The notes below the pieces were generated by a model, which was not told the origin of the DNA, made no database searches, and saw nothing but the letters and a program-made list of their open reading frames with translations. Positions 12,502-32,030 of a stretch of DNA of 51,472 bases are shown here, piece after piece; the first letter of the stretch is position 1, and each line of letters starts with the position of its first letter. The stretch spans positions 1 through 51,472 of the forward strand of contig JANXRP010000023.1 of NCBI GenBank assembly GCA_025352965.1. The letters are read 5' to 3'. Source of the DNA: Comamonadaceae bacterium. Lineage in GTDB: Bacteria; Pseudomonadota; Gammaproteobacteria; Burkholderiales; Burkholderiaceae_C. Made by a program: the position numbers and the translations under genes.

Positions 12502-13083
12502 TTATCGTCTATCGCTCAAGGCGTATGCAATCGTACCCAAGTCCACATACTCTAACTCGCTACCTGCAGGGATACCACGAGCTAAGCGCGTCACAGCAAT
12601 GCCTTTGGCTTTGAGCGTTTGTGCAATTAAATGAGCTGTCGCTTCGCCTTCGGCTGTAAAGTTGGTCGCCAAAATGACCTCGGTCACAACGCCGTCCATG
12701 GCTCGCTTTAGCAACGCCTGAACATTCAATTGCGCTGCACCTATGCCATCCAGCGGACTCAAATGCCCCATCAGCACAAAGTAGTAGCCTTTGTATGCGG
12801 CGCTGCGCTCTAGGGCGGATTGATCGGCTGGCGTTTCAATCACGCACAGCTTTGTGGCATCGCGGGATTCATCCGCGCACGTGCCGCATAGCAGCGCATC
12901 ACTAAACGTGTTGCAGCGCGTGCAGTGCATCGCCTGCGAGACCGCGCCAGATAAGGCCTGCGAGAGACGCATCGCGCCGCCTCGGTCATGCTGAAGCAAA
13001 TGAAATGCCATACGCGAAGCGGACTTTTCGCCCACGCCTGGCAAGACGCGCAGAGCCTCGATAAGAGCAGTGAGGCTTTGCAT
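12502..13083 (-). CDS. recR: Recombination mediator protein RecR
   Basis: Works with RecO, and in many bacteria RecF, to load RecA onto gapped DNA. The 193 residues are near the usual 198. An N-terminal helix-hairpin-helix ([17 protein letters not shown], about 14-30) is followed by a four-cysteine zinc finger (C54, C57, C66, C69) and a Toprim domain, which includes the ETPAD segment. It belongs to the conserved dnaX-ybaB-recR cluster, 12 bases after ybaB. Confidence 0.96.
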
Positions 13084-13095
13084 TGGCGTTCTAAT

Positions 13096-13428
13096 TTAAA
13101 ACGGTAATTTCATGCCACCTGGCAAGCTAGGCATACCAGCGGTGATCTTGCCCATCTTTTCACTGCTGGTGTCTTCGGCTTTTTTGAGTGCAGCATTAAA
13201 CGCAGCGGCCACTAAATCTTCCAGCATGTCTTTGTCGTCCGCTAAGAGAGATGGATCAATCTGCACGCGGCGCACGTCGTGCTTGCAAGTCATGGTGATC
13301 TTGACAAGGCCCGCGCCCGATTCGCCTGTCACTTCGATATTCCCCAGCTCTTCTTGCGCTTTTTTCATGTTGTCTTGCATGTTTTGCGCTTGTTTCATAA
13401 GCCCTGCGAGCTGTCCTTTGTTAAACAT
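13096..13428 (-). CDS. ybaB: YbaB/EbfC family nucleoid-associated protein
   Basis: A 110-residue DNA-binding protein of the YbaB/EbfC family. The N-terminal amphipathic helix ([18 protein letters not shown]) and the following beta sheet fit the dimeric tweezer fold. Its start overlaps the dnaX stop by eight bases, and recR follows, the standard arrangement. Family members affect nucleoid organisation and gene expression. Confidence 0.95.
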
Positions 13429-15127
13429 GTTCTTCCTTTTCCGTTGTATTGATAGGGTGAGTTAAATGGCTAAGTTTGATTGACTTAATGGAGTTCGGCA
13501 CAATTTTCGCATCGAATTCTCGCATGAGCTGCTGCACAGTTGGATCATTCATGATGAGCGCTTCGGCAGCGGCCTGAAGTTCGTTCGCCGCTTTCGCCAA
13601 GCGCTTAGCGGGTGTATCAACCACGCTGCCCGATTGCACCTGTAGCTTCGCGTTTGGCTCTATGGTTTGCAATGCAGTTTGCAATTTTTCTGCGTGCGCA
13701 GGATTTGCCAAGAGCGCGTTATCTACCTGCAAAACCCAAGCATCCGTTTCTTTTGAAATGAGCTGCGATTGCAACGCGAGCTCACGTACCAAAGCGCCGA
13801 TCGATTCGTTTGCAATCAGTTGCTGCGTCATTTCAAACCAAACATCGCCCAGCAGCGTGATCTCAAGCACGGGCACGGCAGGAGTCGGTGCTTTTGGCGG
13901 CGTAGGGATTTCAGTTTTTGAGTCTGCCAATGGCTCAGGTTGAATACGTACAGGCACCGGCGGCGGCCTCTCCTCTAGCATCTCAGGCTTTTTTGACGGC
14001 TCGGCGGCACTCCCATCAGTCATTTTTTTAGGCTTGAAGGCGAGCAAACGCAGCAAAGTCATGGTCAGCGCAGCGTATTCATCGCTTGCTAAACCTAAAT
14101 CTGCTTTGCCATGCAAGCAAATGCTGTAAAGCAATTGAATTTCATCTGCTGGCATTTGCGTGGCCAGCGAAGCAATCGTTGTGTCTTCGTCCGCTAGCTG
14201 AAGCGCGCTGGCTTTGCCGCCAATTTGCGACACCAGCATGCGGTGCAGCACATCGGTCATTTGCTCTAATGTGGATGCGGCATTCAAACCCGCATCTTGC
14301 AAACTACGCACGGTTGCAATCACAGCAGCACCCTCGCCGCGTGCCAAGCTGCCAATCAAATCAAGGATGTAGCGATCATCCACCGCGCCCAGCATTTGCC
14401 GCACTTGTGCCTCTTTGAGTGCGCCATCGCCAAAGGCAATGGCTTGATCGGTCAAGCTAAGGCCATCACGCATGGAACCATGAGCATTTTTTGCCAAAAG
14501 CCGCAAGGCAGCAGGTTCACGCTCAATATTTTCTGCGGCAAGAATCGTCTCAAGATGCGCACGCACCGTCTCAGGTGCCATGGGGCGTAGATTGAATTGC
14601 AAGCAGCGAGAGAGCACCGTCACGGGCACTTTTTGCGGATCGGTGGTTGCTAGTACGAACTTGAGGTATTCAGGTGGCTCTTCCAACGTCTTCAGCATGG
14701 CGTTAAACGCCGTGTTGGTCAGCATGTGCACCTCGTCAATCATGAAGACTTTAAAACGGCCTTGCACGGGCTTATAGACGGCTTGTTCTAGCAATTGCTG
14801 CACTTCATCCACGCCGCGGTTAGACGCGGCATCTAACTCTGTGTAATCAACAAAACGACCCGCATCAATAGCGGTGCAGGCTTCGCAAACGCCGCAAGGG
14901 CTAGCCGTAATGCCGCCCTGCCCGTCTGCGCCTAAGCAATTCAGTGATTTGGCCAGGATGCGCGAGACAGTCGTTTTCCCCACGCCGCGTGTTCCCGTAA
15001 AAAGATAAGCATGATGCAGACGCTGCGAGGTCAGAGCATTGGTCAATGCCTGCACCACATGTTCTTGGCCGACCATTTCGGTAAAGGTTTTCGGACGGTA
15101 TTTGCGAGCAAGGACGAGATATGACAT
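13421..15127 (-). CDS. dnaX: DNA polymerase III subunit tau (and probably gamma)
   Basis: Clamp loader ATPase and organiser of the replisome. The full product is 568 residues from the ATG at 15127; a GTG one codon upstream is less likely. Walker A GTRGVGKT is at residues 45-52, followed by the four-cysteine zinc module (CLGADG... CGVCEAC) and AAA+ motifs, with collar domain III to about residue 365. A Pro-rich linker and the tau-specific C-terminal domain follow. Codons 378-380 (TCA AAA AAG) contain the E. coli-type slippery heptamer, and slipping would end the protein after one extra codon. First gene of dnaX-ybaB-recR, divergent from ffs. Confidence 0.97.
13983..13994 (-). other. Putative programmed -1 frameshift site in dnaX
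   Basis: The minus strand reads A AAA AAG at 13994-13988, with the zero frame TCA AAA AAG, exactly the phase needed for tandem slippage. In the -1 frame the next codons are GCC and then TGA at 13985-13983, giving a product of about 381 residues that keeps ATPase and collar domains only. Possible stimulators are GGGAG 15 bases upstream (14014-14010) and a GC-rich hairpin at 13969-13952, 18 bases downstream. Both are farther from the slip site than in E. coli. Confidence 0.7.
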
Positions 15128-15150: not shown

Positions 15151-15244
15151 GATGAGCCCCCTCGCATGGGAAAGCGGCCAACCGAGTCAGGTGGGGAACC
15201 AAGCAGCTCTAACTGTGGATACAGTGCCGAGGATCAGGCTCATC
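15151..15244 (+). ncRNA. ffs: Signal recognition particle RNA (4.5S type)
   Basis: RNA partner of Ffh for co-translational targeting of membrane proteins. The conserved apical domain reads GTCAGGTGGGGAACC followed by AAGCAGC (15186-15207), with a GGAA tetraloop closed by GG/CC pairs and the asymmetric and symmetric loops that bind Ffh. The ends pair as GATGAGCC (15151-15158) with GGCTCATC (15237-15244). Length near 94 bases fits the short Alu-less bacterial form. Location next to dnaX is usual in betaproteobacteria. Exact ends are estimated from the pairing; a terminator follows 14 bases later. Confidence 0.93.
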
Positions 15245-15257
15245 AACTCATACGAAT

Positions 15258-29848: not shown

Positions 29849-31753
29849 TTACATCGCCCAGTTAAGCGATACAAACGCATTACGTCTTGGCATGGAATAA
29901 CCATTGGCCAGCATATATTGCTTGTCGTTCAGGTTGTTGATACGTCCCATCAAGCTGGTGTTTTTTTGCACTTTCCAAGTTGCTCCTACACTTAAAACGT
30001 TATAGCCACCCAGAATATCACGACCAGTTCCAGTCACTTTGGCATCTTCACGGTTGCTAGATATTTTGTGCTCACCAAATACCGTCACATCGCCCATGTA
30101 GTAACTCATTCGTGTGTTGATGACGTTTTGCGCAACTCGCACCAAACGTAAATCGTTACTTGCAGGTGTGCTTGAGTATGAGCGCGGATCTGCGTAATCA
30201 TAAGATACTGAATAGTTCAAATTGCCCGAGCGCACATCTGCAGTCAGCGTTCCTCCGCGCAACACCGCTAACGAGCTTTGTACGTTTGTAGAAGGGACAA
30301 TAAAGCCTTGAATTTGATTTTGATATGCGATAGCACTCAAACTAACCCCCTCTTTTTGATACTTCACACCCAACTCACTGGCTCTATTTTTTTGTGGTGT
30401 GAGTGCTGTGTTACCAAATCCTGGAAAGTAGAGTTGATTAAAGCTAGGCGCTTGGAAGCTGCTACCGAAGCTGCTGACGACACGCAAAGTATCCGTCAAT
30501 CGATAACCACCAGAAGCTGCCCAGTTATTAAAGCGCCCAAACTGCGAGTTGTTATCGCTACGTAATACGATTAAAGAGTTCCACTTGGCACGATTAAACG
30601 CATACGAAGCCAATGCGCTCTCGACTGTACGCTGCGATACGGTGTAAGCGGTCGAGCTATCCACGGTTTCGTTGCGACTTTCAAGTGCGAGTGATGCTAC
30701 ATCTTTATCAAAGCGAATATCGTTTTGCCAAGCGTATTGTTCACGACGTGTATCAAATTTTCCAAGCGCTCCCAGTGCGCCATCCGATGCACGTAAATAC
30801 TGCTGTGTCGATAGCTCGGCATTCGATCCCACCGTTAACGTCGATGTCCAGCGTGGCAACCACTTAGCCTCCCATTTCAGAGCAGCGTTTTGTGTCCGTC
30901 CAATTTGATGTGTATCGAGGGTTGCTGCTGTTAAACCCAGAGGGTTAGCTGTCCCAGTCGGAATGGTCGAGTCGGTTTGATAATTCACATCACTTTGCAA
31001 CAGACTCAAAGTTACTGCATGGTCTTTGTTGGGTCTAAGAACAAATTTTGCATCAGTGCTTGATGCCTTAAAACCATCCAAATCTGAGTTGTAGCTTGTG
31101 TTTGCAGGGTTGCTTACCGTACTAATGCCGCGTGCTTTTTCTGCTGATACGCCAAGACTATAGCCAATCATGCCCGCGCTACCGCGTACCGACGCGCCCG
31201 CCATTTGCTGTCCATCGCCCCCCGCGCCAATATTGGCACGTACATCTACGGAATCGGTGGGTTCTCGCGTAAAAATTTGAATCACGCCGCCCACGGCATC
31301 AGGACCATATAACGCAGACGCAGCGCCACGCAAAATCTCGATGCGCTCAATACGATCTAAGCCAATGTTTTCTAGCGCAGCACCACCAGCTGTCGCTGAG
31401 CCAACCCGCACACCATCAATCAACACAATCGATTGAGAAGTAGAAGCCCCGCGTAAAAAGAGGCTCGTCGTCGAGCGATAGCTGCCGGTTGTAGAAATTT
31501 GAACACCTGGTTGCCGAGATAGCACATCACGCAAAGATGACTGCCCTTCTCTATCTAAGGTAGCGCGGTCAATTAAGGTCACGTCGGCAATAACATCCGT
31601 AATAGGCACAGCGACACGAGTACCTGTAATAACCATTTCTTTGAGATCGTTAACGGAAGCAGTTTGTGCCTGAGTAGTGGGCATAAATACCGCGCAGGCC
31701 AATACGGACGTGGCTTGCAGACATGCTGCGTGCACTGGGGAGAGTTTTTTCAT
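29849..31753 (-). CDS. btuB: TonB-dependent vitamin B12 outer membrane receptor
   Basis: Outer membrane transporter of cobalamin powered by TonB. 634 residues: signal peptide (about 1-30, ending TTQAQ), TonB box region KEMVITGTRV, plug domain with QPGVQISTTGSYRSTTSLFL and ILRGAASALYGPDAVGGVIQI, then a 22-strand barrel ending RRNAFVSLNWAM. First gene of the eleven-gene operon and directly downstream of the cobalamin riboswitch, so expression should fall when B12 is plentiful. Only a weak TAGG-like ribosome site precedes the ATG. Confidence 0.95.
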   Translation of the reverse strand: MKKLSPVHAACLQATSVLACAVFMPTTQAQTASVNDLKEMVITGTRVAVPITDVIADVTLIDRATLDREGQSSLRDVLSRQPGVQISTTGSYRSTTSLFLRGASTSQSIVLIDGVRVGSATAGGAALENIGLDRIERIEILRGAASALYGPDAVGGVIQIFTREPTDSVDVRANIGAGGDGQQMAGASVRGSAGMIGYSLGVSAEKARGISTVSNPANTSYNSDLDGFKASSTDAKFVLRPNKDHAVTLSLLQSDVNYQTDSTIPTGTANPLGLTAATLDTHQIGRTQNAALKWEAKWLPRWTSTLTVGSNAELSTQQYLRASDGALGALGKFDTRREQYAWQNDIRFDKDVASLALESRNETVDSSTAYTVSQRTVESALASYAFNRAKWNSLIVLRSDNNSQFGRFNNWAASGGYRLTDTLRVVSSFGSSFQAPSFNQLYFPGFGNTALTPQKNRASELGVKYQKEGVSLSAIAYQNQIQGFIVPSTNVQSSLAVLRGGTLTADVRSGNLNYSVSYDYADPRSYSSTPASNDLRLVRVAQNVINTRMSYYMGDVTVFGEHKISSNREDAKVTGTGRDILGGYNVLSVGATWKVQKNTSLMGRINNLNDKQYMLANGYSMPRRNAFVSLNWAM

Positions 31754-31779: not shown

Positions 31780-31990
31780 AGTCAGCGTCCCCGCAGACTC
31801 ATGGGCTTATTGATAGCAGTAGGCTATGAATCTACTGCTATCGCTCTGTTGGCCGATATCCGGGCTGACAAATTCAAGGTGTGAATTTGCTTACCGTTGC
31901 GGGGGCAGCGCAGGTTAAGTGAGTGTTGAGTTCACCCTCCTGCTTCCCGTTTAACTGCGCTGATTGTGAAGTCTGCGCGAGCACCAACTC
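31780..31990 (-). promoter_or_regulatory. Cobalamin riboswitch upstream of btuB
   Basis: The minus strand carries the B12-aptamer landmarks: TTAAACGGGAAGCAGG (31954-31939), GCTGCCCCCGCAACGGTAAG (31908-31889, the B12 box with loop L5), and CAGCCCGGATATCGGCC near 31867-31851. The regulatory hairpin P13 is AGTCTGC-GGGGAC-GCTGACT (31799-31780). Its loop region can kiss L5 through TGCGGGG/CCCCGCA. The usual GCCACTG...GGGAAGG peripheral arm is missing; a short 8-bp hairpin (CAAATTCA/TGAATTTG) stands in its place. An extra 11-bp perfect hairpin (31842-31812) lies between aptamer and P13. No T-run follows P13, so control of translation initiation is more likely than termination. Confidence 0.92.
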
Positions 31991-32030
31991 ACCCATTTTA
32001 AGGGTTGCTGATTACGCAAACTGACAAGAC

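Follow-up and report, generated by a model that had tools for sequence, protein, structure and literature searches.

The dnaX locus and its predicted products

The window analysed here is a 51,472-nt stretch of DNA from a freshwater bacterium that carries dnaX, the gene for the tau and, as predicted below, the gamma subunit of DNA polymerase III (Table 1). The product of dnaX is matched by PF13177, PF22608, PF12169 and PF12170, and tau spans 568 aa (61.6 kDa) from an ATG at 15127; domain residue numbers are given in GTG-start ORF numbering, one higher than counting from this ATG. A -1 shift at the site described below was computed to yield a gamma of 381 aa (41.1 kDa), which would end 15 residues beyond the Pfam match to domain III and lack domain V. 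This agrees with the original prediction of a short product of about 381 residues stopping just after the collar domain. The same prediction had called the host a betaproteobacterium, and the name holds because the named DnaX relatives (best 80 loci) are overwhelmingly Comamonadaceae or Burkholderiales; the four nearest named records among these 80 are three Comamonadaceae MAGs and one titled Cytophagales.

The ORFs that follow dnaX are presumably recR-like and ybaB-like, and the ATG of the ybaB-like ORF overlaps the end of dnaX. On its other side dnaX adjoins a divergent gene for the bacterial small SRP RNA, which is also found beside dnaX at loci L009, L010, L085 and L282. Elsewhere in the window, a cobalamin riboswitch lies just upstream of an ORF of 634 aa, labelled TonB-receptor-like from sequence reading.

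Table 1 Features of the window discussed in the text.
Feature	Position	Strand	Evidence or remark
dnaX, DNA polymerase III tau (+ predicted gamma) subunit	13421..15127	(-)	TIGR02397 E 2.5e-125, Pfam, ORF
Collar domain III (PF12169) coding region	14030..14416	(-)	residues 239-367, GTG-start ORF; retained in predicted gamma
Second A run A7 (CCT AAA AAA ATG ACT GAT)	14023..14029	(-)	judged incidental
Conserved upstream element GGGAGTGCCGCCGAGCC (clade consensus GGGRGYGCCGYCGAGCC), -20 to -4 from heptamer	13998..14014	(-)	58-sequence logo
Shine-Dalgarno-like GGGAG, 15 nt before heptamer	14010..14014	(-)	anti-SD duplex -6.8 kcal/mol in window
Slippery heptamer A AAA AAG, in phase	13988..13994	(-)	codon reading; kept in 57/58 loci of two genera
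-1 frame stop UGA, one sense codon (GCC) past slip	13983..13985	(-)	codon reading
Tau domain V (PF12170) coding region	13487..13855	(-)	residues 426-548, GTG-start ORF, 41.1 bits; missing from predicted gamma
ORFs after dnaX, presumed recR-like and ybaB-like	12502-13428	(-)
Bacterial small SRP RNA	15151-15247	(+)	adjoins dnaX
Cobalamin riboswitch	31834-32003	(-)
TonB-receptor-like ORF	29849-31753		label from sequence reading

A slippery heptamer with a close -1 stop

The minus-strand codons at the site read TCA AAA AAG CCT GAG and place the heptamer A AAA AAG in phase; past the slip, the -1 frame continues with GCC (13988-13986) and then TGA (13985-13983). Our codon reading bears out the arrangement originally described, and the span given for it, 13983-13994, is exactly the heptamer plus CCTGA. 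AAAAAAG occurs only once on the dnaX coding strand, in any frame. In synonymous-codon shuffles of the window gene, an in-phase heptamer arose somewhere in the gene in 472 of 5000 cases, and in 136 of 5000 it came with a -1 stop within 4 codons. For the single window genome, chance alone is not negligible, and the heptamer could be luck. The doubt is removed by relatives, since the heptamer is kept in 5/5 species of the window genus and in 52/53 loci of a related, Polaromonas-like genus.

An A-run form of dnaX prevails in the family

In all, 292 dnaX loci were read, 271 once near-identical ones were removed. The family sample comprised 200 genomes, 6 without a match, and 127 loci were read from the 194 matched. 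The Polaromonas-like genus was sampled through 61 genomes (8 without a match, 53 loci), and an order sample of 120 genomes gave 30 loci fetched and read, 27 of them from outside the family; the window genus is represented in the genome set by five species. Sequences of the heptamer form are named A6G. The family sample held 89 loci with A8 to A10, 3 with A6G (all of the window genus) and 35 with neither. A DnaX protein search of named genomes gave, among the best 80 loci, 67 A9, 2 A10 and 11 A6G, the last comprising the window's four nearest records, five Polaromonas and two Comamonadaceae MAGs; every record named Polaromonas among these 80 loci (5/5) is A6G.

The A9 form, seen in 148 distinct sequences, reads GAA AAA AAA or CAA AAA AAA, then A, and encodes E/Q-K-K-T/S; its commonest version is GAAAAAAAAACTCTGA (64/148). 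In the N-terminal part of the A9 genes, AAA makes up 28% of lysine codons and ACT 159 of 3612 threonine codons, and A runs in the N-terminal 1.08 kb of the 148 genes never exceed A5. Stops around the run were counted in 152 sequences (148 A9 and 4 A10; 2 A8 left out). Within 10 codons, a stop lies in the -1 frame of 144/152 and in the +1 frame of 147/152, against 627 and 483 of 3022 controls, respectively, and in 130/152 the +1 stop follows only one or two sense codons. Since a shift in either direction soon meets a stop, the A9 site is best read as a putative site of transcriptional slippage.

The A9 group might instead rely on ribosomes shifting to the -1 frame at A AAA AAA, in which case the heptamer changed and the level of recoding did not. 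An A run is a ribosomal slippery sequence too, the -1 stops are close in 144/152, and frameshifting in E. coli is described for magnesium chelatase A-run cassettes (PMC3711429). A -1 shift, however, never uses the very close +1 stop, which looks selected. An anti-Shine-Dalgarno (anti-SD) pairing site between -27 and -13, the A6G distance, with an energy of -5.5 or better is present in 58/58 A6G sequences but in only 33/148 A9 genes, and the upstream block described below is absent from the A9 logo. We consider ribosomal frameshifting in the A9 group fairly unlikely and read this group as probably using transcriptional slippage.

The A10 genes L074, L093 and L171 read GAA AAA AAA AAG, combining a long A run with an in-phase A AAA AAG, and genes with both signals are a possible bridge between the recoding forms. 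Beyond the family, 4/27 order-level loci have A8, A9 or A10, and linker runs of A8 to A10 in dnaX of other families occur at L149, L152, L156 and L164. The A-run form therefore either predates the family or arose repeatedly.

Conservation of the A6G cassette in two genera

The sole heptamer miss in the Polaromonas-like genus, L328, has neither signal and is interrupted by a contig end. Synonymous changes that break the heptamer were looked for in these close relatives, and none was seen among them; their alignment also agrees with the proposal that the heptamer and the -1 UGA are maintained amid a drifting linker. All five window-genus species carry GGGAGTGCCGCCGAGCCGTCAAAAAAG (AGG replaces GGG in one), then YCTGAR, and their scorable cassette codons are identical in 8/8 cases, as compared to 117/321 for N-terminal conserved-residue codons.

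The 58 distinct A6G sequences were aligned without gaps, anchored on the heptamer. Because the heptamer defines the class and is invariant in the 58 sequences by definition, only wobble sites outside it were counted as evidence, the non-circular count of heptamers being that by genus, 57/58 loci. Conservation of the cassette spans -20 to about +18 in the two genera; the most prominent positions in the 58-sequence logo are -20 to -4 and 0 to 6, followed by CC codons and CCTGAG. The consensus is GGGRGYGCCGYCGAGCC NNN AAAAAAG CCN CAG CCT GAG, and the window genus is without the two codons that separate the heptamer from CCTGAG. The codon preceding Lys-Lys ends in A despite encoding eight kinds of residue in the 58 sequences (P 22, G 10, A 9, S 6, E 5, L 3, V 2 and T 1).

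A -1 stop lies within 6 codons in 58/58 A6G sequences versus 274/1160 control positions in the same linkers, and a +1 stop within 6 codons in 8/58 versus 232/1160, the +1 frame thus resembling controls. The +1 stop is 3 codons away in the window and 9, 40, 18 and 2 codons away in the other four members of its genus. A close -1 stop without a close +1 stop is what a -1 shift, and only that, needs.

A slipping RNA polymerase could also give rise to gamma in the window, whether on the six A of the heptamer or on the second run, A7 (14023-14029). Many family members likely rely on A9 slippage, and the A7 run has a UGA near in both shifted frames, directly after it in one and after two codons in the other. 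The A7 run is not kept in the genus, though: two species have six A and two a broken run, and A7 was rejected as a slippage site. A Thermus-type test on the window returned no run of about nine A, just A6G and the unconserved A7. Polymerase slippage is expected to enter both frames, yet the +1 frame has a close stop in just the 8/58 sequences counted above, and neither a fixed SD-like element nor the final G of the heptamer has a known role in it. Polymerase slippage in the window is very improbable as compared with a ribosomal -1 shift.

An invariant upstream block with a Shine-Dalgarno-like element

In the upstream block, wobble sites -18, -12, -9 and -6 are identical in 57, 58, 56 and 57 of 58 A6G sequences, a level (56/58) reached by 4.7% of 258 conserved-residue codons in the N-terminal part of the same genes. 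Wobble sites -15 and -3 vary freely in the 58 sequences, and those past the heptamer are unremarkable. Residues are swapped at -17 (Ser/Gly) and -10 (Ala/Val) while the adjoining third bases stay fixed; fixed wobble bases beside changing residues indicate that the block is under selection at the nucleotide level.

These same sites bear on a reading in which the block is conserved for the peptide G-(S/G)-A-(A/V)-E-P-x-K-K, through protein-level or nascent-peptide selection and with no shift at all. Much of this peptide is indeed conserved in the 58 sequences, but residues differ at -17, at -10 and before KK next to fixed wobble bases, third bases as constant as those at -18, -12, -9 and -6 are unusual among the conserved codons of the same genes, and the close -1 stop and the absence of a close +1 stop would be left unexplained. 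Selection on the peptide is highly unlikely to be the reason for the block, and selection for a -1 shift accounts for it better.

A Shine-Dalgarno-like GGRG is present in 58/58 A6G sequences. Pairing energies were calculated with a general anti-SD sequence, not one read from these genomes. The mean minimum over the 58 sequences is -8.2 kcal/mol for the 9-mer starting at -22, the one deep minimum among 100 offsets (mean -1.3, sd 1.9). As a control, the identical calculation placed the known SD of E. coli at -7.4, position -18, with the element taken from a genome record annotated as DnaX frameshifting element. A hairpin inside the upstream block was also considered and discarded, its stability being hardly above that of shuffles (mean z -0.20).

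The original prediction had placed the upstream GGGAG farther out than in E. coli; it does lie 15 nt from the heptamer as compared to 10 nt, and it is conserved. The spacer in the window cassette is YGCCGYCGAGCC. The 15 nt between the last G of GGGAG and the heptamer fall just outside the 9-14 nt quoted for -1 shifting in PMC5009743, and inside the range of 6-17 nt to the second base from another study (PMC4066793).

Downstream structure

A downstream hairpin, also part of the original prediction, found no support in the window from shuffle z-scores or a stem search. Compared with shuffles, the 66 nt from the UGA onward score z +0.33, 116 nt around the site score z +1.16, two downstream spans score z -0.93 and +0.41, and the best uninterrupted stem in the window has 5 bp with one G-C pair. 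The z-test is a weak one, with the proven E. coli stem scoring only -1.4 (40 nt) or -0.4 (60 nt).

Among the five members of the window genus, L010 has a good hairpin (z -2.54) and the others score -0.27 to -0.93. Near the site, stems with at least 6 bp are in mild excess, at 36/58 A6G sequences versus 69/232 control windows. In a 10-sequence subgroup picked by eye, a 5-bp stem is paired in 50/50 cells, where slid controls gave 10 to 40/50, and one pair of this stem varies between G-C, A-U and G-U. The mean z of the A6G clade (-0.54 and -0.43) is similar to that of control regions (-0.08 to -0.45). No uniform downstream structure was found over the 58 A6G relatives, and stem positions differ among them.

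Lysine tRNAs and a probable exchange of recoding forms

Trees were built on the N-terminal part of DnaX, the first from 73 of the 271 sequences, including 23 of the 58 A6G, and the second from 69 rows after four long rows were dropped. The free trees separate the two A6G genera, which requires two changes; with A6G held as one clade, the likelihood was 14 units higher than for the free tree, and a single clade was not rejected (p-AU 0.74). A single A6G origin can be argued from the shared 17-nt block, and the direction from A9 to A6G would follow from A9 being the widespread state. Given the A9 alternative in relatives, gamma production has probably moved to another level in the clade of the window; polymerase slippage seems to have given way there to ribosomal frameshifting, and this switch possibly happened once.

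Lysine tRNAs were searched for by exact pattern, with an ARAGORN check on eight loci. In the window genus (5/5 members, drafts 78-99% complete), tRNA-Lys(UUU) was the only one found by exact pattern; tRNA-Lys(CUU) was found in none of the 5 genomes, nor in the 3 within the family search. By the same search, tRNA-Lys(CUU) is present in 140/179 good family genomes, in 60/84 good genomes with an A8-A10 dnaX, leaving 24 A-run genomes without it, and in 12/31 good genomes of the second A6G genus, all 12 of which keep the heptamer. The difference between the A8-A10 genomes (60/84) and the two A6G genera together (12/35) has a Fisher p of 2e-4, uncorrected for kinship. Absence of CUU as a strict requirement for A6G is ruled out by the 12/31 second-genus genomes that have it.

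It has been suggested that having one or two lysine tRNAs may decide between translational and transcriptional slippage in dnaX, a suggestion that rests, in PMC5009743, on one distant pair, E. coli and Thermus. Our trend would fit the idea that two lysine tRNAs favour polymerase slippage. It stays a lead because of the 12 exceptions, the 24 A-run genomes without CUU and the kinship of the genomes.

Proposed mechanism

Combined, these data very probably identify the dnaX site of the window as a programmed -1 ribosomal frameshift cassette common to the window genus and the Polaromonas-like genus. As a ribosome translates the linker past collar domain III, its anti-Shine-Dalgarno would pair with the GGGAG 15 nt upstream. 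Tension and pausing would then allow the Lys-tRNAs on AAA AAG to slip back by one base and pair anew, with AAA AAA. The shifted ribosome would add one alanine and stop at the UGA, giving gamma of 381 residues, while unshifted ribosomes would make tau. What the sequences show is the heptamer and its phase, the stop, the SD-like element, the conservation of these at nucleotide level and the A9 alternative. From these sequence features we infer both that slippage occurs at the heptamer, with some efficiency, and that gamma is present in the cell.

Several points were counted against the frameshift reading: the window has no convincing hairpin, RF00382 does not match it, the SD spacing is borderline, tRNA-Lys(CUU), expected to reduce slippage, is present in 12/31 good genomes of the second genus, and the A6G genera lie apart in free trees. 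That gamma is made otherwise, such as through tau proteolysis, which is described for Caulobacter (PMC5009743), or is not needed, with the cassette a decaying relic, is scarcely probable: some lineages can do without recoding, given the 35/127 family-sample loci with neither A-run nor heptamer, but the heptamer persists in 57/58 loci of two genera whose linkers have diverged at most positions.

A broader hypothesis would join these observations. A9 slippage and A AAA AAG frameshifting may have replaced one another at one dnaX site within one betaproteobacterial family, with loss of CUU permissive, and the 17-nt element of the frameshifting clade may have, in place of a fixed hairpin, an invariant spacer that helps the shift, and not the SD core only. 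We judge this combined proposal plausible but somewhat short of probable.

Comparison with known systems

The mechanism is already known; what is new, within the reach of our searches, is the clade, the architecture of the cassette and the exchange of A9 and A6G at one site. No report of an A9 or A6G dnaX form in this family was found in the openly licensed full-text literature; the dnaX logo of PMC3711429 draws on nine other genera, Neisseria included. Our data suggest selection for gamma in lineages on which the literature searched contained no report. One family with either device at the same place in dnaX, and with varying sets of tRNA-Lys, also offers a natural experiment among close kin.

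The window most resembles the E. coli dnaX element (RF00382), with an in-phase A AAA AAG, a -1 UGA one codon on, an internal SD-like GGGAG and a product that terminates beyond domain III. So far as the searches show, the window genus also shares with E. coli a sole tRNA-Lys(UUU), which is reported for E. coli in PMC5009743. Unlike in E. coli dnaX, GGGAG lies 15 nt and not 10 nt from the heptamer, the A6G clade has a long invariant upstream block running through the spacer, and the window is without a demonstrable hairpin shortly downstream. Rfam RF00382, at its gathering threshold, had no match in the window or in 5 other A6G loci, while the E. coli control scored 96.8 bits, which suggests that the current Rfam model misses the A6G form as tested.

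The A9 genes of the family are like dnaX of Thermus thermophilus, whose transcriptional slippage design combines a run of nine A and a stop in each of the two shifted frames (PMC5009743 and PMC1088944). Slippage in Thermus concerns the same gene, purpose and kind of place as the site in the window; unlike Thermus, the window has A6G and, across its clade, stops in one direction, and A9 belongs to its relatives. The two-ORF dnaX genes of GeneTack (Chlorobium, Chloroherpeton and others), as described in PMC3711429, are likewise recoded at a dnaX A-run. Those genes need recoding to produce tau, whereas tau of the window is the zero-frame product.
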